Shown: piece after piece, positions 2,064 to 61,827 of the stretch | How positions within the stretch are numbered: the stretch's first letter is position 1 | Layout: the number at the start of each line of letters is the position of its first letter | NCBI GenBank assembly: GCA_038087015.1 | Contig: JASBNA010000038.1 | Span: 124,001 to 188,000 of the forward strand | Reading direction: 5' to 3' | DNA: 64,000 nt | DNA from: Cerrena zonata | Taxonomy: Eukaryota > Basidiomycota > Agaricomycetes > Polyporales > Cerrenaceae | Made by a program: the position numbers and the translations under genes | Notes under the pieces: generated by a model | The model's database searches: none | The model's input: the letters and a program-made list of their open reading frames with translations, nothing else | Told to the model about the DNA's origin: nothing

Positions 2064-3263
2064 ATGTCTTCCAACCTCCTAGATCCTACCCTGCTTCAGG
2101 CTCTACGTGACCTCCAAAGCAGCAAGTATATGAACTTTGCTGCCAGTACCGTAAGTTAAGAATATTTCGAAAACGCTACTATGATCTCATCTGTTGTATT
2201 CTAGATGTGGATATATGACTTTCTGCTCGGAATATCAGACGAAGTTCGGATATTCTCCTCCCGATCTCTCAAATTGCCAGACGTAATATATATTTGCTCT
2301 CGGTAAGTACGACTATCTGACTTTAGAGTTAATCTCAAATTTGACCCTCGTACTTCGTTAGCATCTTGGTTTTCTGCCATGTATTTGTCGGAGCTGCTTC
2401 AGAAAGTAAATGGCGTTTACTTGAACTTCTCGAGATACCAGCTAATCGAAAACCACAGTCATTCCAGAGGATTCGTGTCTTTTTGGACGTCTAACGAGCG
2501 CCGTCAAATGGCTAGTCGCATTCTCCATACCTTGCAGCTCCTGGATCTTCTTCGTCAGAGTACGTGCGGCTTATAACGAGTCACGTATCATCATAGGATT
2601 ATTCGCCACTCTCTGGGCATGCACTCTACTTTCCTTCGGCACACCTTTTACATATTCTGTCACAGTGACACCAATCGGCGACGGAGTATGCGCCATCTCC
2701 GCCGTATTCAATCGCCCCTTAGAAGCTGTTTGTCTTCTTTCTCTGGCGATTTTCGATACAGCTGTGATGATAGGAATCTCAATTCGCATCATGTCATACA
2801 GCATATCGCAAACCTGGAAATCGAAACTGTTCTCGCTAATCTTCGGCGACGAAATGGGCCATACTTCAAAGTTATTCCTCCGCTCCAGCCAAATATATTA
2901 TTTGTACGACCCCTCACAACCCATTCATGTACAACGACTCTCTAACCTATCCCATATAGTTCGACGTTCAGCGTTCAATTCGCGCTTGTCATCATGGTTC
3001 TTTCAAATTCAATCCCAACTCCAATCCTTGGCATGGTAGCATTACTTCAAACTGCCTTCCAAAACATCATGGTCTGTCGCGTATACCGCATGATGAAATT
3101 AGACTCGGACCCCAACTCGACCGATATCCCCTCGTATATAACCCCAGTATTCTTCAATAATAGCATCTCGGCTCCACAAGTGGCATCCTCACTCGAATCT
3201 TCCAGCTCCTCTGGGTTATCTAACACACAACAAAACCCCCCGCGTGGAGACGAAACGAGATAA
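2064..3263 (+). CDS. DUF6533 family membrane protein, array member A
   Basis: First of five tandem paralogues. Exons 2064-2150, 2205-2302, 2362-2405, 2459-2903 and 2960-3263 give 325 residues in frame. The N-terminal DUF6533 block spans exons 1-3 (KYMNFAAST joined to MWIYDFLLGISDEVRIF, then a helix ending in GAAS). Exon 4 encodes several hydrophobic helices with PCSSWIFFVR, a FDTAVMIGISI helix and the conserved LRSSQIYYF end. Exon 5 adds the last helices, FQNIMVCRVYRMMKL and a polar serine-rich tail. About seven membrane spans are expected, with a cytosolic or extracellular tail of roughly 50 residues. The family is abundant in Agaricomycetes and has no established function. The start was chosen because the same short N-terminus precedes the first intron in all five copies. 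Confidence 0.88.
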
Positions 3264-3876
3264 TCTTCATAAACATGTAAGCCTATGTAATATTGTTACT
3301 CTACATCAAATCTGATGTGCAAATAGGGATAAAATGGGGAAGCGGAAAGGAGGGGATGTCTATGTATGGATGAGACATGATCGTATGATGTAGGGACCGA
3401 ATGCTGTGACGCATACTGAACGCAAATGTTGTTGGCTTCTTACGAACTACAGAACCTTCCCATTAGGGCTATTTCGGATATTCCCGAAACCAGCGCACCT
3501 TACGCAGTGACTGACAGTGACACGTCCACCGCCTTGAACTTGAACGATCGACATTTCCCCCTCTCTAGATCTTGCAGACCCCTACCGCACTTATGCGACA
3601 AACGTTTCGTACTTTCAATCTTTCTTTGCCGCGAGGCTGCACCAATACTTCTCACAGTATCTCCTTTGGGAACCCTTGATCTTCCCATGATTTGAGCGGT
3701 CCCGAATGCTAACTACGCGTCAATCCGTCTTAACGTCAATTTGTTCCTTGTTTTTTATTAAACCAGTACCATCACAAATCAAAGTCTAGCTCCAGCCCTA
3801 TGTTTCCAAACGCCTTACCAAGATATAAGGCTGCTTCCCTCAAAGTCATGCAATAGATCTCATCATCATTCTCATC
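3264..3876 (+). promoter_or_regulatory. Spacer between DUF6533-A and DUF6533-B
   Basis: This 0.6 kb region should hold the terminator of copy A and the promoter of copy B. The sequence agatataaggctgc at about 3821-3833 is TATA-like and lies some 50 nt before the copy B start. Open frames here (3426-3695, both strands) look like chance. Confidence 0.4.
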
Positions 3877-5083
3877 ATGTCTGCAGATCCTTCCGATGTC
3901 GAATTCTTGCTTCAGGCTCTCCGTGAAGTCCGCACCATGCGATATTTGGGCTTCGCAACATGTACCGTGAGTAGAAGATCTTTGGAAAATATTCTTTCTG
4001 TTGGAACTCGCCCATCTTTCCCTTTTGTAGATATTCGCATACGACTTGATGCTTGGGATCGCAGAAGATGTTCATCTATTCTTCGGGCGTTCGTTAAGAA
4101 TACCAGATATTGTCTATATTCTCTCTCGGTATGTACATCCTACCCTTTTTTGATCTGAAAACCAACATCAACCATAGAACGCTTATTGCAGCAGTTAGCT
4201 TCCTCGGATTGGCATCAGCCGGTGTGTATGCTCTTGTTCGATCCTCTTACAAACACTGAACGAAATATTATTCAAGCCGTACCTCTTGACTCTTGCGCTC
4301 AAGCGACAATGATCGTAGTTGTCAAATGGTGCATGGCAATCGCCGCTCCCTGTAACTGCTGGCTTTTCTTCCTCCGCGTGCGAGCGATCTACGTTCGTTC
4401 ACCGATAGTTGTCGGTATCTTCCTAGTACTATGGGCTTCGACTCTCACCTCATTTGCTTCTCCGTTCGGATACAAAGTAACATCCACCGACGAGGGGAAC
4501 GGAAGATGTACCATGGAATTCCACTACGATCGGCTTTTAGGAGCTGTCTTCTTCATAGCCTTAGTGGTCTTTGATACTGCCGTTATTGTTGCAGTATCAT
4601 TATGGATGCTTCACTATAGCCTGACTCCAACATGGAGAGCACGAATCAGAACTCTGATATCTGGTGATGATACCGGACATACCGGCAGAATTTTCCTTCA
4701 ATCTGGTCAGATCTATTATATGTACGCACCATCCTAGCTGTGTCGTCCCGTGGATGAAACACTCAACTGCCTATTATAGCACAACGGTCTGCGTCCACGT
4801 ATCACTTGCTGCCATGATCCTATCGTCCTCTGTTTCCACAGGTATTTTAGGAACACTTGTCTTGTTCAGCACTGTTTTCCAAAACCTGATGGCGTGTCAT
4901 GTCTTTCGCCTACTCAAATTGGAGCCGGCGGCAGAAGACTCTATGTTTTCGATCCCTGTCGTATTTTGGCACGATATTTCATCTTCAAAGCAATCTTCAG
5001 GTGATCAAGCTCTTTCTATTAAGACCCTTCTGATATATCAGAAGCTGACTATCACTATAGGTAGTGATGTAATGTCGAAATGA
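3877..5083 (+). CDS. DUF6533 family membrane protein, array member B
   Basis: Exons 3877-3966, 4031-4128, 4178-4221, 4277-4721 and 4780-5083 give 326 residues. Exon 1 encodes 30 residues (through RYLGFATCT). Exon 2 carries the DUF6533 core IFAYDLMLGIAEDVHLFF. Exon 4 opens with VPLDSCAQATM and PCNCWLFFLRVRAIY, and ends SGQIYY across the last intron. The C-terminal half has VFQNLMACHVFRLLKLEP. Exons 2-4 have exactly the same lengths as in copy A (98, 44, 445 nt) with the same intron phases, so the copies arose by gene duplication and not retroposition. The last 30 codons could instead be split by a small extra intron (a gtgatc donor near 5000 and an acceptor near 5060), so the tail is less certain. 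Function unknown. Confidence 0.87.
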
Positions 5084-6010
5084 CGAGAACCTGTATATAC
5101 CAAACCGACGCCGCTATTAACATTCCTCCTACGAAGTTTATAAACCGGACGTCTAAAGCCAACCCCAATCTACGAGTATCCAAAATAAAGCAAACTCGAC
5201 TATCCATTGTCAAACCTATCAGCTAGACCATTGCTCGGCACATGACTCTCACGTTGTTGTCTCCCTGTCGGCAATTAAAAAGTTTACCATGGTTTTCGCG
5301 TGTCTACTGTTGCTCCCAAACAGGTAAGTGCACATAGTTCCTCCTCGGAAACGTGTATCATAATCTTGATTCAAGATCTCAGACATCGCAGACGAAAGAA
5401 GATAAATTTCGGAAAATCTGAGCGAAGCCCATGGTAGAATGATAAGACTACTCCTGAAACATTGACCAACTACCTGACATAGGTCCCAACAAAAGCATGA
5501 CCTCGCCCAGAATTGGGTAAATTTTACAAACAATATAACTCCCGGCGTGTTTCTATTTTCTTCATCAGTACCATCTAATCGGATTCAGGGATTATCAGAC
5601 AACCCCAAGATTGGCATGCTCCTCAAGTTGTTAGAATGTGAGTCACACCCCAAATCAGAGAAAACGCAAACCAGTTACTAGGTTCCTTTGACATCGCCGC
5701 GCGGTATATGCTCAGCTCCCCATTCAATTCACAGGAGTAATGACACTTTCATCATTTGTGAGCTGCGACCCGGTGCTGCGATCGTCCCGTCCTTTTGGCT
5801 TGTCACACTAACTGCGACCTCCGAGGAGCACCAGTACTTTATATGTGGGATGAGAAGTCACGTTGGCCCTTTGTCGGCGAACTGAAAAGAACTCCATGAT
5901 CGTCCTCAGTGCTGAGATTGTGTGTCTGATGGTCAAACCAGCGTACTACGTCTTTGGGTATAAAGGTATTGAGTTTGACGCAATCATTTAGGCTTACCTT
6001 TCCTCTCATC
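5084..6010. other. Intergenic spacer between DUF6533-B and -C
   Basis: About 0.9 kb. I found no convincing gene, no tRNA-like element and no decayed DUF6533 copy. The minus-strand frame at 5249-5533 and the plus-strand frame at 5688-5885 lack recognisable motifs. Confidence 0.4.
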
Positions 6011-7158
6011 ATGTACGATGCCTCACAACTGGAAGCCCTTCGCGAAGTTCTTTTGCAGAGATACCTGACTCATGGAATAGCTACCGTGAGTCAAACATTT
6101 CCCACGACATTCCGCAGGCGATTTAACTTACTGACCCTCTAGATATTCGTCTATGACCTTCTACATGGAATACCCGATGATGTCCATATTCTCTCCTCTC
6201 AATTCATCAAGTCACCGTATATCATTTACGTTTCTTCTCGGTACGTGTTGTTTGCTATGAATTCACTTCTGATTATTGACCTCGCCTCAGAATTATCGTT
6301 ACAGCGCTCGCTATTCTTGCGTTGACATCCTCAGGCCAGTAGACACCCTTTCATACGGCCGACTGTGCTCTCTTACCGTAAATATAGCTATACCTCTCGA
6401 CTCATGTTTCCAGGCTACGATGAACTTGATCGCCTCTTGGCTGGTTGCGATCGTTCTACCATGCAACTCTTGGGTATTCTTTTTGCGAGTTCACGCAATA
6501 CACCGCAATTCCAGAACAGCTGTGATCACATTCACAGCTCTGTGGGCTGCAATCTTCACCTCCTTTACCGGTCCGTTCAGCTACGTATATACCGTTACTC
6601 GACAGAATGACGGGTCATGTATAACCGTCTTCCATTTCAACCGTTTGTTGGGCGGTATCCCTGTCGTTGCCTTGATTGTGTTCGATACCGCGACTATAAT
6701 CGGGATATCACTTCGAATAACATCGTACAACCCGGTACAGTCTTGGAGGGAGAGGCTTAAAGTCCTGGTTCATGGGAACGAGATGGGACGGATACAGAGA
6801 CTATTCCTTCGTTCTGGGCAAATTTACTACTTGTGAGTGGTAACTCTATTCAAAACCTTTGTCAGCTAGACCCGACTTCGTTATCTCATACAGAGCAACC
6901 AATGGAGTGCATATATTACTCTTCTCGATGCTTCTATCGTCCACTGTGTCCACTGCCCTCCTTGGAGCGCTGTTCCTGTTCAGCGTCGTCTTCCAGAACA
7001 TAATGGCGTGTCGGGTATTTCGATTATTAAAGCTGGAGTTGACACAGGACGATCCGTCATTCTTTACACCGGTCATATTCCACAACGATGAACAGTCATC
7101 ATTGTCTGTAGCCTCTCCACCATCTAGCTACGCAACGGAAGTAGAAAGTTTAACTTAA
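6011..7158 (+). CDS. DUF6533 family membrane protein, array member C
   Basis: Exons 6011-6085, 6143-6240, 6291-6334, 6388-6832 and 6894-7158 give 308 residues, the shortest copy. The core is IFVYDLLHGIPDDVHILS; exon 4 has IPLDSCFQATM, PCNSWVFFLRVHAIH and IVFDTATIIGISL, and ends SGQIYY. Exon 5 has VFQNIMACRVFRLLKLEL and a short tail. The third intron must begin with GC (gccagt at 6335) to keep the 44-nt exon and the reading frame found in the other four copies; the nearest GT donor (6339) breaks the frame. This is either a GC-AG intron or a damaged donor. The large open frame across that intron (6276-6836) would allow intron retention without a stop. Confidence 0.84.
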
Positions 7159-7918
7159 ATTATCATGTGGAAAATGAGTCATTTCATTGCTATTGTTATT
7201 CTGGTGGCAACGAGATATAATAATCTGGATTGACCACGTATGGTGTCTGTGTCAAAGAAATAGTTGGTCCAAGAATTGGTACTAGTAGACTCATCTGAGT
7301 CTGTTGTATTCATATTATATTGTATAAAGCTCTTAGGACATTGTTTGAATTACGTAAGAACTGGCTGATATAACAGAAGAGGAACATAGCCGCTGGCGTA
7401 AGCACTCTTCCATAACGCTTCCGTGCCCTTTTCCGAAGTGTCTCACAAAACTACTACAAGTGTTTCGATAATTTACCTTGGGTCAAAACGCTCGTGATTC
7501 TATTTTTGTCGCTCCCTCAAGCCATGCCGAATAAACTACAGATCACCCTCCTAAGTTACTAATATCATTAGTATACGAAACGCTCGCTCTCGTCAATGTT
7601 TTACCTCTACTAGTACTACTAGTAGCTGTGTGTGGTGACTCTGAGACGGTTTTCAAACCGTCATCGCTCGGCGGGGATGGGAGCTGCGCTTATGAATGAC
7701 AGGTCCTCGACGTATTAACTGCTCGTAATGGTGCGTCGTGAGATTCTTCTGTATGCTTACATGGGGCTCAAACATAGCCATATTGTCATCAACTGATAGG
7801 AATTTAAAAGCTAGGATCGGTACCAATGGTCAACTATCGTCTGAGTGTAATTGGTTAAGGGTACCAGTATAAAATGGATCTATCCAGACTCCATCTTCAC
7901 ACTAGTATCGCCTGTGTC
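7159..7918. other. Intergenic spacer between DUF6533-C and -D with small inverted repeats
   Basis: This 0.76 kb gap has no gene I can support. It contains a near-palindromic CTACTAGTACTACTAGTAG at 7607-7625 and a perfect 8-bp inverted repeat with a 2-nt loop at 7645-7662. A TATA-like agtataaaa lies at about 7867, close to the copy D start. Confidence 0.45.
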
Positions 7919-9066
7919 ATGTCCACTAGCTCGCAAGGTGCTGCAGTACAACTGCAAGTATTTCAGGATGGTCAAACGATACGGTATATTGGGCTTGCAA
8001 CGACTACAGTGGGTGTAACTACGATAGTCTTCATTTTTATCCTAAACAAACTCTCATTCCAGATTTTCCTCTATGATTTTATTCTTGGACTCGCGGAAGA
8101 CGTTCGCATGGTTTCATCACACTCGCTTTGTATTCCAACCTTTGTCTATTTTACCTCCAGGTACGCTCCCAAATCAGAGAACAAACCCCACAATTTACAT
8201 CGTTATTTAGAGTTCTTGTTGTTGCACTTATCCCCTTTGAAGTAGCTAGGATAGGTAAGTAAACCATACTTCATGACAATAATAATAAGTCTCTTATCAT
8301 CAGTCAAGCCCTACCTCTTGATTCGTGCTTGCAAGAAACCATTATAACAGTAGCTAAATGGTTGGCAGCAATCGTCATACCATGCAACTGTTGGCTATTT
8401 CTTCTCAGAATTCAAGCAATCCATAAGCACTCGCGCATCATTATCACAAGCTTCATCGTTCTTTGGGCGTCGACTCTCACATTCCCCCTCATCAATGCGT
8501 TCAGCTATACCGTGGTGATCGTACGCAAAGAAGACGGCACATGTGCAGCGACGGCCCGAATTACCCGCTTGTTGGTAGCCATACCATTCATAGCATTGGT
8601 TTCATTTGATACCGCTGTAATGGTGGCCGTTTCGATGTATATCGTAAAATATAACCCAGCCCAATCGTGGAAAGAGAAGGTCAAGATATTGATGCAAGCA
8701 GATCACATAAGCCAGATAGAGAGGGTACTGCTACGTTCTGGTCAAATATATTACACGTGGGTATCTGTTTTCACGAACTCTCTTGAGTAAATTTAACGAT
8801 TTGTACATAGGGCGACTATCGGCGTTCACGCCTCACTCACTGTCATGGTCTTGTTGGATTCTTTTTCTGCAGTCATCCTTGCAGTTCTCGCAATATTCGG
8901 TGCCGTCTTTCAGAACATCATAGTGTGTCGTGTATTCCGACTGCTCAAATTGGCTATGGTTCAGGATCATGATGATGTGTCTTCGTTCACACCCGTTGTA
9001 TTCGCCAGCAATATCTCATCGTTGAACCATCCAACGCTAACATTACCTGATAGTACTCTCGAATGA
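7919..9066 (+). CDS. DUF6533 family membrane protein, array member D
   Basis: Exons 7919-8008, 8063-8160, 8211-8254, 8309-8756 and 8811-9066 give 311 residues. The start at 7919 is preferred over an upstream in-frame ATG at 7874 because it yields a 30-codon first exon identical in length to copy B. The core is IFLYDFILGLAEDVRMVS. Exon 4, one codon longer than in A-C, has LPLDSCLQETI, PCNCWLFLLRIQAIH and VSFDTAVMVAVSM, ending RSGQIYY. The C-terminal motif is VFQNIIVCRVFRLLKLAM with a short serine-rich tail. All junctions are GT-AG and in frame. Function unknown; several hydrophobic segments indicate an integral membrane protein. Confidence 0.87.
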
Positions 9067-10005
9067 GCTATCGGCTGATGCTGTCGAAGTAGCATAGGAT
9101 CCTCATGAGACTGTAGCGGAAATAGAAAGCATATACAGATGATTGAGTATTGCGTTATCTTGTCTTTGCTGATTTATGACTTGGTCTCCGAACCTAATTA
9201 AGGACGTGAATGTTATGGACTGCGATATATTGGCAACAGGCGAGAAACCCTACGTTCGTAACTCACCTGAAGATCATACTGACCTTTCTGTATATAGTAA
9301 CATGGATCTCTCCGTCCTGATCCATCCTTCAGACTTTCATCGAATTCCCTTTCTCAGACCAAATACGCTGGCCTACATTCCTCGTCAACCGAGTATCGGA
9401 ATACTATGACAAGCAATCTTGTACTTCCTACCTGCATTACTCTCAAATACACTTGTCATCGTAACCTTCGCTCATCCGAATCTCTCTGTTAGGATGGTGT
9501 TATCCCAAAATGGTCGGTGTCTATCATACTGATACTGCGGTCCCTTACAATTTGTCGTTTTCTATGTATAACGTTGTAGGGATCTTCTTACCGCATGTCC
9601 TTCTTCCATGACCCTTATGGATACGCTGGAGACTGTGTAAGTCAGACGTACTCAGATCTTCAACCTGACAGATCGCTGATCGGCCATCTTTCCCAAGAGT
9701 CCCGAAGTTCGGAGTACCTGAGAACCCTTGTTTAAGCAAGGTATCCCGCCCTTGTTACAGATGATGCGCCTTCTTACGCTGTGTAGCCCTCAACTCCCCT
9801 CTCGGGCTTACTACCGTCATGATAGGTCAAGCAACCATATGAAACAGAAATGCGCGAGCCTTGTATTAGGTGACTATAGCATCCGTACAAGATGGTAAAC
9901 TCGGTTCTCTCCATTAAAACGGCATAACAAGGTCGATGGGGTTACTCGTTTATACCTAAGCAGGTCTACATTTGTCTCCTAGGATCTCCGGTTTAGCTTC
10001 CCTCC
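9067..10005. other. Intergenic spacer between DUF6533-D and -E
   Basis: About 0.94 kb without a supportable gene. Short frames at 9176-9409 (+) and 9545-9739 (-) have no recognisable content. Confidence 0.4.
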
Positions 10006-11271
10006 ATGGACACCGAAGCCATGCAACAGAGTCTGCAAGCTCTTGCAGATGTCAAGTACATAACATTCTCAGCAGTCACCGTTAGTACTCAGTCTTACAT
10101 GAACCCTTGATTATTGATCATAATGATATCCTCTAGTTCTGGTTGTACGATTTTCTACTAGGCTTTGCAGACGAAATCCGTATGGTCCTTCGGTGCTCAT
10201 TTTCACTACCAGATATTGTTTACTTGCTCTCCAGGTGAGTTGGCATCTCTATAACATACGACACCAACTAATACATCCAAATAGATTGCTGACGTTTGGG
10301 CATTTGGCAGCAGCAATAAACCTATCGGGTTCGTTGATCACATTCCATTCGCAAAATAGACTCTAATAGATATCAACCCTAAAGTGGCCTCACCCGACTC
10401 ATGCTCCAAAGGAATAGCAACTGATGTAGTGAAATGGTTTATATCCCTCGCACTTCCTTGCAACTCCTTCATCTTCTTCCTTCGTGCTCGGGCTCTCTAC
10501 AAGGACTCTCGTATAGCTGTGGCAGTCTTTGCACTCCTATGGACTCTTACACTTTCCTCCTTCGCTCTCATTTTTGGCTACAAACTTGAAATCGTCCCAA
10601 ACCGGGGAGGGTCCTGCTTAGTGACTGTCCAAAGTCTCTCAAGCTATTACATAACATCACCTTTCGCCGCGTTGGTCGTCTTCGATTCTGCCGTAGCCAT
10701 CGCAATATCAGTTCATCTCTTATCATATATCCCAGCACGATCATGGTCTGCGAGGATGAAGGCGATCATGTTTGCGAAGGACTTGGGACGCATACCGCGG
10801 TTGATTCTTCGATCAGGGCAGGTTTACTACATGTACGTCCTTTCTATTTCTCCTGCTGTTTTTCAGCTTGCTCATTTGACTAGCGTAACTATTGGCATCC
10901 ATATGACTGTTGCTATCTTTGCGGTGACGTCTATCTCCACGATTATAGTCAGTGAGATAGCGTTGCTCACCTGTGCTCTACAAAATGTGATGGCTTGTCG
11001 TGCGCATCGCCTTCTGAGATCTGGTAAAATTAGTAACGAACCAGTGTTCCTATTCCCTGGCCGTCTCTCAGGGAGCACCCAGATAACAGAATTCCCTTCT
11101 TCGTACTCCGGAACGGCCATGGCTTCAGAAGGGTCTACTGTAGAACATCAGACGAACGATAATCATGTAAACAGGGTCCACGTTAACTCATATGACGCAG
11201 ATCCCGAAGCACAATCATTTCCGATGATTGCAATAACGGTCACGGCGGAGAGACAAGTATATCATATATAG
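10006..11271 (+). CDS. DUF6533 family membrane protein, array member E (long tail)
   Basis: Exons 10006-10080, 10137-10234, 10285-10328, 10385-10832 and 10884-11271 give 350 residues, the longest copy. The core is FWLYDFLLGFADEIRMVL. Exon 4 has SPDSCSKGIATDVVKWF, PCNSFIFFLRARALY and VVFDSAVAIAISVHL, and ends RSGQVYYI. The last exon has LQNVMACRAHRLLRSG, a diverged form of the VFQN..MACRVFRLLKL motif of the other copies, followed by an extended polar tail of about 75 residues. I place the last acceptor at gactag (10882-10883), not at the earlier ttttcag, because only that choice keeps the frame into TIGIHMTVA. It is the most diverged member and sits at the array's downstream edge. Confidence 0.87.
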
Positions 11272-20342: not shown

Positions 20343-21601
20343 CTACAGGAAGTAGTCTGCTGGAGGTCGCTTTGCAGGTATCGATCGAACGTCCTACGAA
20401 CGGGATCAGTATAACAGACCGTCTATACACAAAAAGTGTACTTACCGAAGGTGCATGCGAGAACACCTTATACTCCTGTCCGAGATACTCATCCAACTCC
20501 AAGATCGAAGCAACGTTTCCACACCGATAGCAATAATTCGGCGCACTCCACACTGTCACGATCAGGTTATCGAACATCAGTTTATACCCCTCCATCGCTA
20601 ACTGATGTGCTCTTGCAATGAGGTCGATAGCGTTATGGTGCGCGAACGCTTTGGTGATATCTGCGCCGAATAGGAAGCCTGCACCTCGAGGTGAGAGACC
20701 CCACCCGTTGATGTCTGAGGAGCGAAGTGAGCGTTAGCGATACGTTCATCGAAAGGACGAGGTAGTGTTGGTATTGCGTACCGTCGGGATCCGACCACAG
20801 AAGATCACACATTGGACCATCATGCGGGACCTCTTGTTTCCTGTCGATCCCTCGTATCTATCGACAAGTTCAGTATACAACCCCATACCCATCCACGAAT
20901 TACATACCTGATCGATCCCCTGCAAGTTCGGACTCAACCCTCCATGCACACAAAAGACTCTCCCATCCACGATCGCCCCAAGCGCAAGGTAATCAAAGAC
21001 CTCACAACACCACCTCCACACATTACTACTCCCATACTTCCTCTGACACTCATCGTAGAATCCGTAAACTTGGGTGATTTGTCTTGACTCGTGGTTCCCT
21101 CGGATGAGAGTCATACGTTCGGGGTAACGGACTTTGAGGGCGAGGAGAAGGAGGAATGTTTCGACACTGTAGAAGCCTCGATCGACAAAGTCACCTGTAA
21201 AGTCAACGAATTAAAGAGAACTTGAATGTATGGGGGAAAGGAGAGGAGACGTACCCATGAAGAGGTAATTTGTTTCCGGACAGAAGCCACCAACTTTAAA
21301 GAGTTCCATCATATCCCAGAACTGTCCATGTATATCCCCACATATCTAAATCGTACCACAAGTCATCAACTATCCATATATACAGCAAACAACGAAATAC
21401 GCACCGTAACGGGTGAATCCACCACCTGCACATTCGCCTCCTCAATAAGGATTTCTCTCGCTTTGATACATAGTATCTTCACCTGCTCTTCCGAGATAGG
21501 TTCACACCTAATCAACTGTTCTATCTGTCTGACAAGATTGAACTTATAAAACAGGTAACAAGAAAAGGTAATCGGGTATACCTATCAAGGTCACTCGGCA
21601 T
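20343..21601 (-). CDS. PP2A-family Ser/Thr phosphatase catalytic subunit (PP4/PPG1-like)
   Basis: Cytoplasmic or nuclear metallophosphatase. Minus-strand exons 21582-21601, 21405-21528, 21255-21345, 20908-21194, about 20782-20857, 20446-20714 and 20343-20393 give about 305 residues, the usual length of PP4/PP6/PPG1 subunits. Metal-binding and catalytic blocks are intact: [58 protein letters not shown] and [10 protein letters not shown], then [12 protein letters not shown]. The C-terminus ends DYFL, the tail that is carboxymethylated on leucine in this family. I cannot choose between the PP4, PPG1 and PP6/Sit4 branches by eye; the [19 protein letters not shown] segment fits PP4/PPG1 best. Seven exons are joined by GT-AG introns in consistent phase. 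Confidence 0.88.
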
Positions 21602-26691: not shown

Positions 26692-28561
26692 TTATATAGG
26701 ATATAATATACGTATATCTTTCTAACTTAGTCTGGGAACACACCCTAACGCTAGCAACATTTGTTTTAGTGAAAGAAGCGGTCCCGAACCGTGCTCCGAC
26801 ACCGACATGATACAGTGGAATAACATGGACACCTCCGTGAAGGGACGTATCAACGGGTAGTACGTATCACAGCTACATGCTTTTTTAGACTCGATGAGTG
26901 CCCTAAAGCCGCCACTACTTGAGCTAAATAGGTCTGAACAAAGGTGATGAAGTGTTTTTGGCCTTTGGTATTGAACTAATAGCTTCGTGAAACGAAAGTC
27001 TGTGTCAATGGATTCGAACCTCTTATTGCCTAAGTCGCGACAGTTCGTAAGATCTATAATAAACCGTAACTCTCAGCCCCGAGTGTTGACAGTCCTTAAC
27101 CACTATTATATCAGCCCTTCTCCAGAGGCCATGATTACTCCTCTCGGAGCACGCACCTTCCTTGTACTTCGTTTCGTAGCTACTGCGCAGTCCGATGCAG
27201 ACTGTCCGGGTCCGTATCAGCCCCTTGTACTGCGGGATTGTTGGTCCGGTACGTTTTCCTAAGTCCTACCCACACAATTGGTCTGAATCTTCTTTTTGTA
27301 GGCTGATAAAAGCACTATTGCTGAATTCCTCGGGGTCAGCGGTATACGTTCTCCCTGACGGCAGAGTCGAAGTTTACTGCGAACCCTCCGACGGCATAGG
27401 TCAAGGAGGCCATGGCATACCAGCCTGCTGTGTTTACCTATTCGTAAGTCTACTCAGCACCTTATACACCTTGAACTTTGTGCTCGACGCATGTCGTTGT
27501 TTTCAGTATAACGGGGTTGCACTCGACCGCTTGAAGTAAGAGAAGCTAACAGAGGCAAAGAGAGCATAATCTGATAGCTTGTGTAAGGATACCCCGGAGG
27601 GCGGACGAAAGGTCATTGTCGCAACCCAAGATCAAAGTGATATCTAGTTAGTGTTTATAACCTTGAAAACCACAACTATCACTCATCTGCGTAAAGGACA
27701 TTAGTAAACCAATCAGAGCAAGCCAAAGAATACTGACACGTATTTCCATGGGTCCGATTAACGAATTTCATTTCGACAGTTCGTTCCTAACTTGGTTCCT
27801 CCGGGTTGAGGGCCGCCCTGAATGAGTCGGTGAATAAAAATTACTTCAAGTTGGGGCCCAATGGACCCCGGAATCACATCTTACACCGGTGTAGACAGTA
27901 AATACCGAGGTCTGGCTCACGTCTACGCCGACGTGCAGACTAGTGATGTAACATCGACGCGGGTCTTCATGAATAAATCTGTTACCTCCATTGATAGAGG
28001 ATATCCATAGATATACACGGCTTGCTACTTGCTCCCAGCAGTTGACTTTCTAAAGCAGTCTGTCAGTGTCAAGGGAGAAAAAAAAGTGGCGACCCAAAGG
28101 ACAATCTTTCCCAGGAGATCGGAGGTAATAAGGACGGTTGCAAACCTCCAATCAGGCACCTATCATGTTCAATGGCTCATCAATGTTGGAAGGAAGTAGT
28201 AGTTGAGAACCTCCTCCATGAGTGCCTGTTCTGTCTTTCATGATCCGCCTATCTTTAGTTAAGTTACGTGCGGCAAGGCCTGAGTAACCGTTGATGCTTG
28301 GCCAGCCGTAACCTAATCTCAAGTACGCGGAGTCGCGGACCAGTTTGAGTTTGTGCCAATAACAGAAGCGATGGGACGTTGTCGGTCTGAAAATGCCACC
28401 TCCTGTTCCCACACGACCTGAGTCTTTCTCACGAGATGCCATCGCAGTACCACCCGACCTGGTGTATCGAATAAGCAACGAGTAAGATCCAATACACAAC
28501 TTGAACCACAAACACAATCACCTACATATCACCATTATACTTCCTTCATCCTTCTGACGAG
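26692..28561. other. 1.9 kb without a supportable gene
   Basis: Open frames at 26987-27262 and 27195-27539 (+) and a 121-codon frame at 28152-28517 (-) have no recognised motifs. The last lies head-to-head with the DUF7704 gene and could be a short gene, but nothing beyond its length supports it. Confidence 0.4.
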
Positions 28562-29080
28562 ATGACTGACACAATTCCGTTCTTGCCGTACCGCCTTTTT
28601 TTTCTCGTCATCGAACCCATTTCCGCACTCGTCGGTGCATATTATGCAGCAGGTCAACCATCGGAGTATCTCGCATTCCTCTCAATTCCCTCAACGGCTA
28701 CTAAACAAACAACCACTCCGACACCCACATCGACACTCATATCACTTTATCAACTGTCCAACCTTTATCTGTTATTTGCTTTGAACGAGCATATCGTTTT
28801 ATCATCGACTAATTCCCTCAAAACGTGGCGCAGACTGTTATTCTGCCTCCTCATCGCCGACTTCGGACATCTTGCAACGATGTGGCCCTTGGCCTTGGAG
28901 AAGGGTGTCAGTGGGGTGTATCTCCGGTTCTGGGAATGGAACGCGATGGAGTGGGGAAGTGTTGGGTTTGTTTATTTGGGAGCGTTGATGAGAATGAGCT
29001 TCTTGATTGGGTTGGGGACTCAGGAAAGCCAACGAGACTCGGGGAGAGCGGGGAGGGCGAGAAGCTCAAAGGCCGAGTGA
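28562..29080 (+). CDS. DUF7704 family membrane protein
   Basis: Single-exon gene of 172 residues with four predicted hydrophobic segments. These are the N-terminal LFFLVIEPISALVGAYYA, a middle LYQLSNLYLLFALNEHIVL, then RRLLFCLLIADFGHLATMW, and a C-terminal GSVGFVYLGALMRMSFLIGL. The pattern of an early (L/I)EP in helix 1, LxNLYLLFALNE in helix 2, DxGHL in helix 3 and LGALxRxxFxxGLG in helix 4 is what I associate with the fungal DUF7704 family. The C-terminal tail is basic and serine-rich. Function is not established. It sits between a gene-poor zone and the ribosomal protein gene, and I see no link to its neighbours. Confidence 0.78.
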   Translation: MTDTIPFLPYRLFFLVIEPISALVGAYYAAGQPSEYLAFLSIPSTATKQTTTPTPTSTLISLYQLSNLYLLFALNEHIVLSSTNSLKTWRRLLFCLLIADFGHLATMWPLALEKGVSGVYLRFWEWNAMEWGSVGFVYLGALMRMSFLIGLGTQESQRDSGRAGRARSSKAE

Positions 29081-37247: not shown

Positions 37248-37271
37248 ATCGATCCTCTGCGTTCACAGGTT

Positions 37272-40200
37272 ATGGGCCCCGGCGATCAGTCTAGTCTCTT
37301 TGGCCAGAATGACAACTTGAAGGTTCCGAAGCTGTCTGAGGACGGCTCGAACTGGGTTCTCTACAAATCCCAGTTTACCTCGGCTGTCATCGCCAAGAAG
37401 CTAAGACGATACCTAAACGGTACCGCCAAAGAACCACCACCTACTACAGCTCCCGGTGTTGACCCTGATGCTGATGAGAGGTACCAGGATGCTCTTGATG
37501 TGTACGAGTCATGTCATGCCACCATCAAGACGCTCCTCTTCCAGACGCTACCAGAACCACTCAAGCTGAAGATCTCGTCGAAGACGAAAGCCAATGAATG
37601 CTGGAAGATCGTAACGGACACATTTGACCAACAAGGGGACTTCGTTCAAGTCGACCTTCTACGCCAGATGAACAGTCTTCACTGTGCAGAAGAAGACCCC
37701 CGTCCAACGTTACTCGAACTCCAACGTCTCAAATCGGAATATGCGACTGCTGGCGGCACACTCAACGATCAGCAATACAAAGCGATGATATTGTCATCCC
37801 TACCCGAGTCCTATCGACCTACCGTCCGTACGATCCTCACTAGTGCTCAGATTTCAAAGACCACCCTCACCGCCGAAGACCTCCTCCTGAACCTCTATGC
37901 CATTGCTCGTGACGATAGTACCATCAACTCCGGTGGTGCTACGGATTCCGCTTTGGCTGCTAATTCGTCAAAGATCAAGTGTTTCAACTGTAACAAGCTT
38001 GGTCACAAGAAGGACGATTGCTGGAGTAAGGGCGGTGGAAAGGAGGGACAAGGTCCGAGACGTCGAAACGGGAAGGGAAAGGGGAAAGGGAAAGAAGGTA
38101 CGAGTGCCAACGCTGCTGCAACCGTTGACAACACGAGCGAAGATTTCGCTTTTCATGTTGCAACCGACTTCACTCTTGTGGCCAGCCAGAAACTAGCCAA
38201 CAAGAATCGTACCCGCCTAATCGACTCAGGCGCAAGTCGTCACTTTGATCCCTGCCGCGAAAACTTTACCTCGTACCGGCTGATTCCTCCTAAACTGGTT
38301 CATTCTGCTGACGGTGGCACCTTCAATGCTACTGGAGAAGGTGACGTCAAGGTCAGCACCCTGCACAACGGAAAAGAGGTCAAGTTCACCTTGAAGAACG
38401 TTTTGCATGCACCGACGATGCCCGTCGCCCTGATTTCCGTCAGTCAGATGGTCAAGGGAGGTTTCCCTGCTCACTTCGACCAAACCGGCTGCAAAATCGT
38501 CACTCCGAGTCAGACGACTCTTACCACAGTCATGGAAAAGAACGGTCTGTACCCCCTACTGGACAGCATGCCGACCACTACGAAAAGCGAGTCAGCTCTA
38601 GCCGCGGAAACCCCGATATCGATCACACTCATGGACCTCCATCGTAGGATGGGTCATTCACACTCACCTGCCTTGAAGAAGATGGTCAATGATGGAGTCG
38701 TCGAAGGTATACACCTCACCGACACCGACATCCCGTTTTGTGAAACTTGCGTCAAAGCGAAGCAGACTCAGAAACCGTTCCCGAAGGAGCGATCGAGCCC
38801 ACCAACAACGTCCTATGGTCAGCGTGTCCATTCCGACGTATGGGGGAAAGTGTCCGTTCGATCCATAGACGGAAACGAGTACTTTGTCCTATTCCTCGAT
38901 GACTTCTCGGATGAGGCCATGGTGGTCCCACTGAAGAAGAAAAGCGAAGTCTTCACTCGCTTTAAGGAGTACGAGGCCTTGATAAAGAACCATAGAGACG
39001 TCAAGGAGATCAAAGAGCTCCAAAGCGACCGAGGAGGCGAGTTCACTAGTGCCGAATTCACTGCCCACTTGAAGAAACATGGGACCACCCGTCGACTGAC
39101 AACACACGATTCACCGCAGCAGAATGGGAAAGCCGAACGGCTCAACCGAACGCTTGCAGAGCATGGTCGAGCAATGCTGCTTGATGCTAAGCTCCCGAAG
39201 TTCTTATGGGTCGAAGCGATCAAGCATGCTGCCTACTTGAGGAACCGAACAACAACGAAGAACACTATTGGTTCAACGCCGCACGAACGCGCGACCGGAG
39301 TGAAGCCCAATCTCGGGAAAATACCTCGTTTTGGATGCGAGGTATGGGTGCATGTGAAAGCACCCTCGAAACTTGATGCAAAGTCGAAATCGGCTCGTTG
39401 GGTCGGTTTTGATGAGCATAGCAAAGCCCATAGGGTATATTGGCCTGAAAAGCGGTCGATTTCCGTCGAAAGGAACCTAGTTTTTGTTCCAGAGGCCCCT
39501 GTAGAGGCAGTAGTAGTGCCTGAGGGGGAGAGCTCACCAGATTCAGCCCAAAAATCGCCTTCAGCACCTCCTCCTGCCCCATCTACACCTCCCACAACAT
39601 CTCAAGTCGTTCCTCCTGCTTCAGTGAACCCTCCTATCCCTCCAGATGTCAACCAGATCCCCAAAGCGAAGCCTGAGGAGCCTTCTGCTCCCATACAACC
39701 TCCCACTGACCAGGGGGAGCTGCCACAGCAAACAGAAGGACTCCCAGAGCCCAGAAAGCGAAAGCCTTCGCCTTGGATCAGGGCTATACAAGAGGGGAAG
39801 GGTACAGCAGGTGGTAGGGGTGCTCAGAGAATCCCCAAGACCCTCTTCAGCCCGGAAAAGGCCAGTTTTGCTTCAGAAGAGCTTGAGGAAGACTCAGAGG
39901 AGCCTATCTTCGCTTTGGCTGCAATGCCAGGAGATGAACCAAGGTTTGAGGAAGCCATGAAGGGTCCAGAGAGGGAGGAATGGAGAAAAGCGGCCAGAGG
40001 AGAGATCAAGACGATCGAGGAGATGGGAACCTTCACGCTGGTGAAGCGGCCACCCAGTGTCAACGTGATTGGCTGTGTTTGGGCGCTAAAGAAGAAACGA
40101 GACGCGAACAACGAAGTCGTTAAGCTCAAAGCTCGACTTTGTGCACAGGGCTTTTCACAGGTCCTTGGTATTGACTACACGGAAACTGCAGCTCCCACGG

Positions 40201-41495
40201 CTCGTATCTCATCAATCCGCTACATCCTTGCCCTCGCCGCTTCAAACGATTGGGAAATCCATCAAATCGATTTCAAGAATGCTTACCTTAACGGAAATCT
40301 CGACGAGGAGATTTACATGAAGCAGCCACCCGGGTTTCAGGAATCTGGGAAGGAGGATTGGGTATGGAAGCTTCATAAAGCTCTGTATGGCCTCAAGCAA
40401 GCCGGTCGCCAGTGGTATAAGAAAGTATGTGAACTCTTCACCGATCTTGGACTTACTCGCTGTGAAAACGATCAGGCCGTTTGGTACATTTTCCGTCCCG
40501 ACCTCGCTGTCATTGTTGGTATACATGTTGACGATTGTCTCATCGTTGCCAATGGTGTTACCATTGCACTTTCTTTCATTGACGAAATCGCTTCTCGTCA
40601 TGAAATCGTCCATCTCGGTCCTGTCAACTGGCTTCTTGGTTTCAAGGTGGAACGTGACCGTCCTAATCGAATCCTCACTATCTCACAAGCCGCCTACATC
40701 GATACAGTTCTAGAACGTTTCGGTATGACCGATGCAAATCCCGTCTCTACCCCTCTCGATCCCAATACCAATCTCTTCGCCTATGAACTTTCTGACGATA
40801 TACGTGCAGAGATGCGTTCTCGCTCATATTCTCAAATCATCGGTTCCCTCATGTATGCTTCCACTGGTACCCGACCTGACATTTCCTACACCGTCTCGAC
40901 TCTTGCTCGCTTTATGTCGGATCCCCATCCTATCCACTGGGATGCCGCCAAACGTGTCCTCCGGTATCTTAAAGGTACTAAGGACCTTCGCCTTACCTTC
41001 GGTCTTAACGACAATGGTCTCATTGGGTATACCGATGCTGACTGGGCATCCCAAGCTCACCGTCATTCCATTTCAGGCTCTATCTTCCTAGTTTCAGGGG
41101 GAGCCGTTAGCTGGAGTTCTCGCAAGCAACCCATTGTTGCTCTTTCCACAACCGAAGCTGAGTACATTGCCGCTTCTGACGCTTCACGCGAACTTCTTTG
41201 GCTTCGTGCTTTTGCTTCCGAACTTTGTGTCCCTTTCAATTCTTCTACTATTCTTTATTGCGATAACCAAAGTGCTATTAAAGTAGCTAAAAATGGTCTC
41301 CTTCATGCTCGTACTAAACACATTGACATTCGCTATCACTTCATTCGTGAGACCATGGATAATGGTCATTTAGATTTAGTTTATTGTTCTACTTTTCTCA
41401 TCCGGCGTTGTACCCAATTCGACTGGTTGCTTCGTATCAAAACGGACAAGGGTCTCGTCCCTCTTCAATTACCTGCTGCTTCAAGGTTACATTGA
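37272..41495 (+). CDS. Copia gag-pol polyprotein
   Basis: 1407 residues in one frame. Domains in order: gag-like region (about 1-230), CCHC knuckle CFNCNKLGHKKDDC (237-250), aspartic protease LIDSGAS (316-322), GAG-pre-integrase HHCC zinc region (about 456-493, ending FCETC), integrase core with the DDE pattern seen as HSDVWG, SDRGGEF and NGKAERLN (about 519-627), a Pro-rich linker, reverse transcriptase of the RVT_2 type with IDFKNAYLNG and IHVDDCLIV (about 920-1095), and RNase H with YTDADW, STTEAEY and YCDNQSA (about 1250-1340). The gene order protease-integrase-RT-RNase H is diagnostic for copia. The final 35 or so residues after GHLDLVYCST do not resemble the usual copia C-terminus, consistent with a 3' truncation. 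Confidence 0.93.
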   Translation: MGPGDQSSLFGQNDNLKVPKLSEDGSNWVLYKSQFTSAVIAKKLRRYLNGTAKEPPPTTAPGVDPDADERYQDALDVYESCHATIKTLLFQTLPEPLKLKISSKTKANECWKIVTDTFDQQGDFVQVDLLRQMNSLHCAEEDPRPTLLELQRLKSEYATAGGTLNDQQYKAMILSSLPESYRPTVRTILTSAQISKTTLTAEDLLLNLYAIARDDSTINSGGATDSALAANSSKIKCFNCNKLGHKKDDCWSKGGGKEGQGPRRRNGKGKGKGKEGTSANAAATVDNTSEDFAFHVATDFTLVASQKLANKNRTRLIDSGASRHFDPCRENFTSYRLIPPKLVHSADGGTFNATGEGDVKVSTLHNGKEVKFTLKNVLHAPTMPVALISVSQMVKGGFPAHFDQTGCKIVTPSQTTLTTVMEKNGLYPLLDSMPTTTKSESALAAETPISITLMDLHRRMGHSHSPALKKMVNDGVVEGIHLTDTDIPFCETCVKAKQTQKPFPKERSSPPTTSYGQRVHSDVWGKVSVRSIDGNEYFVLFLDDFSDEAMVVPLKKKSEVFTRFKEYEALIKNHRDVKEIKELQSDRGGEFTSAEFTAHLKKHGTTRRLTTHDSPQQNGKAERLNRTLAEHGRAMLLDAKLPKFLWVEAIKHAAYLRNRTTTKNTIGSTPHERATGVKPNLGKIPRFGCEVWVHVKAPSKLDAKSKSARWVGFDEHSKAHRVYWPEKRSISVERNLVFVPEAPVEAVVVPEGESSPDSAQKSPSAPPPAPSTPPTTSQVVPPASVNPPIPPDVNQIPKAKPEEPSAPIQPPTDQGELPQQTEGLPEPRKRKPSPWIRAIQEGKGTAGGRGAQRIPKTLFSPEKASFASEELEEDSEEPIFALAAMPGDEPRFEEAMKGPEREEWRKAARGEIKTIEEMGTFTLVKRPPSVNVIGCVWALKKKRDANNEVVKLKARLCAQGFSQVLGIDYTETAAPTARISSIRYILALAASNDWEIHQIDFKNAYLNGNLDEEIYMKQPPGFQESGKEDWVWKLHKALYGLKQAGRQWYKKVCELFTDLGLTRCENDQAVWYIFRPDLAVIVGIHVDDCLIVANGVTIALSFIDEIASRHEIVHLGPVNWLLGFKVERDRPNRILTISQAAYIDTVLERFGMTDANPVSTPLDPNTNLFAYELSDDIRAEMRSRSYSQIIGSLMYASTGTRPDISYTVSTLARFMSDPHPIHWDAAKRVLRYLKGTKDLRLTFGLNDNGLIGYTDADWASQAHRHSISGSIFLVSGGAVSWSSRKQPIVALSTTEAEYIAASDASRELLWLRAFASELCVPFNSSTILYCDNQSAIKVAKNGLLHARTKHIDIRYHFIRETMDNGHLDLVYCSTFLIRRCTQFDWLLRIKTDKGLVPLQLPAASRLH

Positions 41496-59725: not shown

Positions 59726-61827
59726 ATGGTTGCCTCTCTTGGAAAGTTCGTGTCGCTCCTCCTACCTCTTGCCGCTCTCGCACTGGGGAAGCGGACTCTT
59801 CCACCTCGCCCTTCAGTGCCTTCGGCGATGGCACCAGAGGAGGTTGCTGTGGTTGACAGGAACGGATCTACTATCCCTCCTTACACCACTACTTACTACT
59901 TCGACCAACTGATTGACCACACCAAGCCCCAGCTTGGTACGTTCAAGCAACGGTTCTGGCACACATGGGAATTCTACGTTGCGGGTATGTTCGTTGCCGT
60001 CACATTTGCAAACTGATAGTCTAATTCCTTTCCATTACATAGATGGCCCGATCATTCTTATGACACCAGGAGAAGCGAACGCTCAGGGTAAGCCAATTCA
60101 AATAGGCAATAATCAATCGCAATTTATTGACGCATCTACCATCCCTGCATTTCAGGTTATTCTGGTTACCTCACTAACCGGACTATCAACGGTCAACTCG
60201 CTCAACAGGAGAACGGTGCCACTATCGTCCTCGAACATCGTTTCTACGGTCTCTCTAACCCCTACCCCAGCTTGGACGACGAAAGTCTCAAGTTGAACAC
60301 TATTCAACAAGCTGTTGATGATTTGGACTACTTTGCCAGGAACGTCAAGTTGGCTATGCCCGGCGGTGACAACGTCAAACCTGGTCAGGCTAAGTGGGTT
60401 CTTATGGGTGGTAGTTACTCCGGTGCTCTTACCAGCTGGACCATGGTCAAGTCAGTTTTTTTCTTGGAATTTCGTGGCTATACAGGGATTGACATATTGA
60501 CTACAGCAAGCCTGGCCTTTTCCACGCTGGTTATTCGTCCTCTGGTGTCGTCGAAGCTATCGTGTAAGCATTTCACTCCTAGCTCGGCATTCTAAATCTT
60601 ACCGGAATTTGTTTACCCATGTGTAGTGACTACTGGGGATACTTCGAACCCATCCGTCAGAACATGCCCGTGAATTGCTCTGCAGATGTCGAGGCCGTTA
60701 TCACTTACATTGACAAGACTTTCACTGGCCGCAACACGACTGCTATTAACGAGATCAAGTCTCTTTTCGGTTTGTCAGCCTTGACTCACCTCGACGATGT
60801 TGCCGGTGCTCGTAAGTAGCTTCGCTTGTAATATTCGTCTTAACAGCTCAAATCTGTCACAGTGCGAAACAACTTGTGGGACTGGCAAAGCCTTCAACCT
60901 AACTCAGGCGCCGGTACCACCTTCACTCAATTCTGTGATGCTTTGGAAGTCAAGGATGGTGTGAGTGCCAGTGCTAAAGGCCAAGGTTTACAGCACGCTC
61001 TCCAAGCATGGGGCAACTTCTGGACCAAGGGCGGATACTTGGCTGACCTCTGCGGTGATGCCGATATTGTGTATGTTCATTGCATTCGTTGCCGTCTATT
61101 TAGATGGGAGACTAATCTTTCATTGGTGATAGTGACTGCCTTGGATCCTATGACGCTACATCTGACTATTACACTAACACCACTATTGACAATGCTGGTC
61201 GCTCATGGTACTGGATGGTGTAAGTGATGTAGCGATCTCACGCCAAGGCTCGATAACTAACGATTGTTATTTTAGTTGCAACGAAGTCGGCTTCTTGCAA
61301 GATGGCGCTCCCGCTAACCACCCAACCCTCGTCTCTCGCCTCATTCAACCCGCCTACGACCAGGTTCGTTTCCTTCCTACTTCCTATCTTGAACCTTGTT
61401 TAACATCCCCATTTTATAGCGCCAGTGCAGCCTCATGTTCCCCAAAGCTTTCTCCGCGACTTCTGTCCCCAAAGCAAACGCTGTCAACGCCAAGTTCCGC
61501 GGCTGGAACGTCAAGATCGACCGTCTCTTCTTCGCCAACGGCCAACGTGACCCATGGAGAGAAGCCACCATGTCTGCTGACGGACTCAACGTCCAAAGCA
61601 CCGACCGCCAACCTATCGCTGTTAGCGATGGTTTCCATTGTTCCGATCTCAGTACCGCTACCGGAAACGTCGATGCTACTGTCAAGGCTGTTCAACAGAA
61701 GGCCTTGGCTTCGTTCCATGTTTGGTTGGCGGAGGACACTAAGCACAAGAGATCGATTATGGATGTTGCCCTTGAGACTCTCAAGGGCGTTAAGGTTTCC
61801 AGGAGCGAGGGCTCTTTGGGTGCTTAA
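59726..61827 (+). CDS. Secreted serine carboxypeptidase, family S28 (PRCP-like)
   Basis: Extracellular or vacuolar prolyl-type serine peptidase. Nine exons, 59726-59984, 60043-60087, 60156-60450, 60507-60563, 60627-60811, 60863-61070, 61133-61219, 61276-61363 and 61420-61827, give 543 residues exactly in frame. A signal peptide (MVASLGKFVSLLLPLAALAL) precedes the S28 fold: FDQLIDH, TFKQRFW, GPIILMTPGEANAQ, VLEHRFYGLSNPYPS, the nucleophile GGSYSG, FHAGYSSSGVVEAI, the acid in FANGQRDPWREA and the catalytic His in GFHCSDL. Several NxT/S sites suggest N-glycosylation. Related fungal enzymes hydrolyse proline-containing peptides at acid pH. It is transcribed toward the GMC oxidoreductase, with stops only 160 bp apart. 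Confidence 0.93.

Follow-up and report, generated by a model that had tools for sequence, protein, structure and literature searches.

We analysed a window of 64,000 nucleotides (nt) from the polypore Cerrena zonata (assembly GCA_038087015.1, contig JASBNA010000038.1, here C38; the window is C38:124001-188000). Close to its first base stands a run of five genes, A to E, encoding predicted seven-helix membrane proteins of the DUF6533 type. A preliminary description of the window had reported five head-to-tail paralogues of five exons each, and two rebuilds from the genomic sequence, one by splice-site enumeration and one with a profile-driven spliced aligner, confirmed this, with all five on the + strand. 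Gene A (window 2064-3263) encodes a DUF6533 seven-helix protein of 325 amino acids (aa) in exons 2064-2150, 2205-2302, 2362-2405, 2459-2903 and 2960-3263. Gene B (QCA50_014891, protein P0001; 3877-5083) encodes 326 aa in exons 3877-3966, 4031-4128, 4178-4221, 4277-4721 and 4780-5083; gene C (QCA50_014892, P0032; 6011-7158) 308 aa in exons 6011-6085, 6143-6240, 6291-6334, 6388-6832 and 6894-7158; and gene D (QCA50_014893, P0002; 7919-9066) 311 aa in exons 7919-8008, 8063-8160, 8211-8254, 8309-8756 and 8811-9066. Gene E (QCA50_014894, P0020; 10006-11271), the final copy of the array, encodes 350 aa in exons 10006-10080, 10137-10234, 10285-10328, 10385-10832 and 10884-11271.

The exon lengths (in nt) are 87/98/44/445/304 in A, 90/98/44/445/304 in B, 75/98/44/445/265 in C, 90/98/44/448/256 in D and 75/98/44/448/388 in E. 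The reported constancy of exon 2 (98 nt), exon 3 (44 nt) and exon 4 (445 nt in A-C, 448 nt in D-E) therefore stands, as do the shared phases: the introns follow the series 0-2-1-2 in all five models, each of which sums to a multiple of three. Intron 3 of gene C (6335-6387, + strand) is of the GC-AG type, GCCAGT...ATAG, opening with GC in place of GT, and the NCBI protein (308 aa) is identical to the GC-AG model. For gene B the NCBI protein (306 aa) has an extra intron near the 3' end compared with our 326-aa five-exon model; for gene D (326 aa) it starts at 7874, an in-frame ATG 45 nt upstream, which makes exon 1 135 nt long. None of the three protein searches made returned an NCBI record for gene A.

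All five genes had been labelled DUF6533. At the cut-off of Pfam PF20151 (24.1 bits) the label holds for A (28.5 bits), D and E; B falls below it at 21.7 bits, and for C there was no Pfam match even with E-values up to 1 allowed. The five proteins can nonetheless be aligned with one another along their full length. Judged by this full-length homology to A, D and E, B and C are members of the family despite failing the Pfam cut-off.

When A, B and E were searched against the whole assembly (55.5 Mb, 171 contigs), matches at the level of exons covered C38 between about 53 kb and 135 kb, with no further match on C38 downstream of gene E. The array thus extends 71 kb beyond the window on its upstream side, and the window holds just its final five copies. 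With the spliced aligner run along the contig, we obtained 28 gene models, some with uncertain 5' ends, within C38:52718-135271 (82 kb), 18 of them on the + strand and 10 on the −. The description of a five-gene array beginning at A was therefore too narrow. Five exons are present in 25 of the 28 models and phases 0-2-1-2 in 24. Short gene remnants lie near 86.4, 92.5 and 118.5 kb of C38, and running the array profile over the gaps of the array gave short remnants only. In a genome-wide scan with the Pfam DUF6533 model (150 of 188 candidates scored), gene E was the one row from C38 among at least 115, so the Pfam model barely detects the array. A second concentration of DUF6533, with 24 of these rows, occupies C10:643184-1083404. 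Two DUF6534 matches above the Pfam cut-off (C38:111183-111473, L021, and C38:121542-121784, L022) fall in gaps of the array, and the locus is therefore common to two seven-helix DUF families; the array profile did not recover these two stretches.

The preliminary description had taken a frozen exon architecture as the hallmark of the array. Of the 25 five-exon models on C38, 22 have an exon 2 of 98 nt, and exon 3 measures 44 nt in 21 of all 28. Relatives dispersed elsewhere in the genome (n = 19) show the same plan: five exons are present in 12, every one of which has phases 0-2-1-2 and seven of which have a 98-nt exon 2, and exon 3 is 44 nt long in 16 of the 18 with at least four exons. Because these relatives have the same plan, it is older than the array. 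Its constancy is beyond chance, but as inheritance: it is a trait of the subfamily, common to its dispersed genes. Selection on exon lengths is a needless explanation, since the dispersed relatives have the plan too. Canonical DUF6533 genes were approached through 20 high-scoring PF20151 loci: in 19 of these the models reached no further than the stretch from the first to the second transmembrane helix (TM1-TM2), and in the remaining one the aligner ran through 11 implausible introns.

The GC donor of gene C recurs at intron 3 of six other copies on C38 (57488, 64752, 69875, 75333, 84435 and 107660). It is found in seven of 22 copies with the 44-nt border, whereas the 75 other introns in the 25 five-exon models contain it once (Fisher p 9e-5), and the tree requires at least four changes to account for it. 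A reading of gene C as a pseudogene owing to this donor is disfavoured: six more array copies have it at the same border. We also considered whether the copies are mainly decaying duplicates of little function, maintained by local duplication. Three of the 28 models do carry stops or frameshifts (62463, 79546 and 107660), and the three remnants and the seven GC donors could be taken the same way. However, the other 25 models are open, and NCBI annotates a complete protein for each of B, C, D and E. The ratio of nonsynonymous to synonymous divergence (dN/dS) is 0.12-0.46, well below 1, in all 13 pairs with more than 60% identity, which do not include A-E and of which seven have dS above 1. Purifying selection acts between close copies, and general decay appears very improbable.

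Trees were built from 47 rows and again from 40, after removal of seven broken or short rows, and the two agree. Gene A is sister to a pair of genes on contigs C7 and C16 (support 100/100); B, C and D form a clade (98/96); and gene E stands apart, grouped with C38_88055 and C38_114567 (79/85). The preliminary description had named, as a finding that would speak against it, a phylogeny in which the five copies do not form one local clade, and this is what we obtained: monophyly of A-E is rejected by the approximately unbiased (AU) test (p 1.16e-5), as is that of A-D alone (p 7.3e-4). A C38-only clade, comprising the core C38 rows including A-E but not the C7/C16 pair, is also rejected (p 0.002). 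A clade of A-E plus the C7/C16 pair is marginal (p 0.044), and A-D plus that pair is present in the best tree with insecure support (82/69). The pair itself (C7:1395533-1396700, L023, and C16:531209-532379, L024) matches at 89% over 1.8 kb while the rest of the 6-kb stretches is unaligned, a pattern better suited to dispersed copies than to two haplotypes of a single locus. Since the C38 copies at 117659, 82249 and 91945 fall on other branches, the cluster is of mixed descent.

Repeated duplication with a constrained membrane core and faster change elsewhere had been proposed for these genes, and the alignment bears it out. Mean identity in the clade is 0.37-0.49 in the seven helices, compared with 0.22-0.25 in the N-terminus, C-tail and second outer loop. 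Seven helices with the N-terminus outside are predicted, both by the AlphaFold helices of D and E and by a positive-inside layout: the inner loops are rich in lysine and arginine (K/R), and the outer loops are not K/R-rich or are acid-balanced. Column identity is 0.561 in the cytoplasmic helix halves and 0.348 in the outer halves (24 unbroken clade members; 0 of 10,000 permutations as large). The same contrast appears in A-E alone (0.537 versus 0.357, p 0.0001) and in 16 dispersed relatives (0.492 versus 0.302); it arises in TM2, TM3, TM6 and TM7 and is absent from TM1 and TM4. Exon 3, which encodes the outer half of TM2, ranks with the most variable regions (mean identity 0.26), yet its length is kept. 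Two cysteines, one before TM3 and one in outer loop 2, are conserved in 27 of 27 and 25 of 27 clade members, respectively, and each in 18 of 20 proteins outside the clade. Class A receptors have a disulfide at the matching positions.

A search of predicted structures against seven-helix folds, which the preliminary description had suggested, was run for D (mean predicted local distance difference test score, pLDDT, 85.6; predicted template modelling score, pTM, 0.80) and E (79.4 and 0.73). By Foldseek and VIA-align, both predicted models have the fold of a G-protein-coupled receptor (GPCR), with modest template modelling (TM) scores of 0.29-0.54. VIA-align placed Ste2 (PDB 7ad3, 7qbc), the yeast pheromone receptor of fungal class D (D1), first for both proteins; Ste2 was missing from the 50 Foldseek rows listed for either. 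Class A GPCRs occupy most Foldseek and VIA-align rows among the matches listed, and for gene D cryorhodopsins score on a par with them. STE3 was not among the structure rows, which carries no weight, the presence of an STE3 structure in the library being unchecked. GPCR family profiles gave no match in a PDB profile search, in a Pfam scan of 36 members or with hhalign against the class D2 receptor STE3, and neither 7tm_1 nor DUF6534 matched the array proteins. The hhalign probability was 0.1, the same as for reversed STE3, with a small STE3 alignment from the Cerrena zonata genome. A pattern scan of A-E found none of the motifs DRY, NPxxY and LPLSSMWA, the last being the Ste2 helix 7 motif.

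The family had been said to have no assigned function. According to the available text of a study in Coprinopsis cinerea, however, SNB1, a DUF6533 protein with seven predicted helices and the N-terminus outside, is required for fruiting-body patterning, and its deletion blocks differentiation of cap, stipe and gills (PMC10949477). The authors consider a transporter, a channel or a receptor all possible, and they report one to three SNB1 homologues in most Agaricomycetes, with no major expansions (PMC10949477). The array proteins could accordingly combine a GPCR-like fold with a transporter, channel or lipid-handling role, their copy number serving dosage or substrate range. A common fold alone demonstrates no function, and the cryorhodopsin scores of D, the missing GPCR motifs and profile matches and the latitude left by the SNB1 authors all lean this way; we consider such a role unlikely, but it is the strongest of the alternatives. 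The SNB1 phenotype and topology also raise the prospect of developmental receptors that pattern the fruiting body instead of sensing the environment. One to three homologues in most species contrast with 28 array models and at least 115 Pfam-level rows here, and we regard this possibility as improbable.

The reading we favour is that the array proteins act as GPCR-like receptors, and we think it somewhat probable that the 82-kb cluster of 28 models, of which A-E form the downstream end, consists of orphan seven-helix membrane receptors evolving by birth and death. The GPCR fold predicted for D and E makes the earlier suggestion of a sensing role plausible, and A-E may be unrecognised mushroom sensors. 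For the self/non-self role suggested along with it, the analysis gave evidence in neither direction. Under such a model, the variable outer half of each copy, including the part of TM2 encoded by exon 3, would bind its own small molecule or peptide outside the cell, and the common cytoplasmic face would relay the signal to a heterotrimeric G protein. Whole-gene duplication would have passed on the fixed exon plan, which would be the ancestral gene structure. More tentatively, mushroom-forming fungi could possess a large, unrecognised set of class D-like (Ste2-like) chemosensory receptors, with the DUF6533 subfamily either a remote offshoot of the fungal class D receptor shape or a separate arrival at it; polypores would then have expanded the subfamily into clusters that parallel those of animal odorant receptors, the outer helix halves providing for a variety of ligands and the inner side for a shared G-protein face.

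Little is known about the ways in which basidiomycetes perceive neighbours, wood chemistry or partners. If these proteins are receptors, one polypore genome holds well over 100 candidates that standard GPCR profiles miss (the array models together with the Pfam-level rows), and a Ste2-like fold would offer a framework in which to interpret the SNB1 phenotype. If the likeness is one of fold only, the locus nonetheless illustrates birth-and-death evolution clearly, in genes that have inherited their exon plan.

Elsewhere in the window we identified genes for an ABC-type ATPase (1-1172, − strand, with 708-1172 assigned to it by position only), a calcineurin-like phosphoesterase (20749-21210, −), a DUF7704 protein (28505-29077, +) and a serine carboxypeptidase S28 (60131-60592, +), and a 1415-residue open frame (37248-41492, +) whose gag, integrase and reverse transcriptase domains are of the copia type. 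STE3 pheromone-receptor matches form a run at C46:298453-333781, on a contig that also has DUF6533 matches at 239-243 kb. Contig C13 is probably from a contaminant yeast, because its STE3 gene (C13:82250-83098, L055) is intronless with a GC content of 0.32, whereas the values for the other measured loci are 0.44-0.48. The sole STE2 match in the assembly (C23:33761-34619) may have the same origin.

How does the array compare with known systems? In animal chemoreceptor gene clusters, genes for seven-helix receptors stand in tandem and turn over by birth and death. The array resembles these clusters in both respects and differs in that its genes have four introns each; the likeness need not mean common ancestry. 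Class A GPCRs account for most structure-search rows among the matches listed and share the two conserved cysteines described above, whereas the array proteins lack DRY, NPxxY and a 7tm_1 match, and class A scores a lower VIA-align Z than Ste2. DUF6534 proteins, which the accessible part of a machine-learning study proposes as a new GPCR class of Agaricomycotina (PMC12842992), are likewise seven-helix basidiomycete proteins, with two matches inside the array, but the array proteins do not match their profile. With SNB1, as described in the part of the publication available, the array shares the Pfam match (in A, D and E), the seven helices and the outer N-terminus; it differs in being clustered and expanded, and in that B and C lie under the Pfam cut-off. 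Some Ganoderma genomes are richer in a set of domains that includes DUF6533, according to the available text of that comparison (PMC8955403). Most fungal GPCRs are orphans, in the words accessible from a 2026 review (PMC13308352). Ste2-type receptors are placed in Ascomycota only in the portions available of two reviews (PMC12842992, PMC13308352), and the literature searched, with subscription papers outside its scope, yielded no comparison of DUF6533 with Ste2. Ste2 itself lacks DRY, PIF and NPxxY, differs in the arrangement of its helices, which is its own, and has the LPLSSMWA motif in helix 7, as the consulted part of its description states (PMC8942848). At 8-10% identity, without LPLSSMWA or a profile match, the array proteins are unlike Ste2 in sequence; in helix arrangement they resemble it, Ste2 being the top VIA-align row for both D and E.
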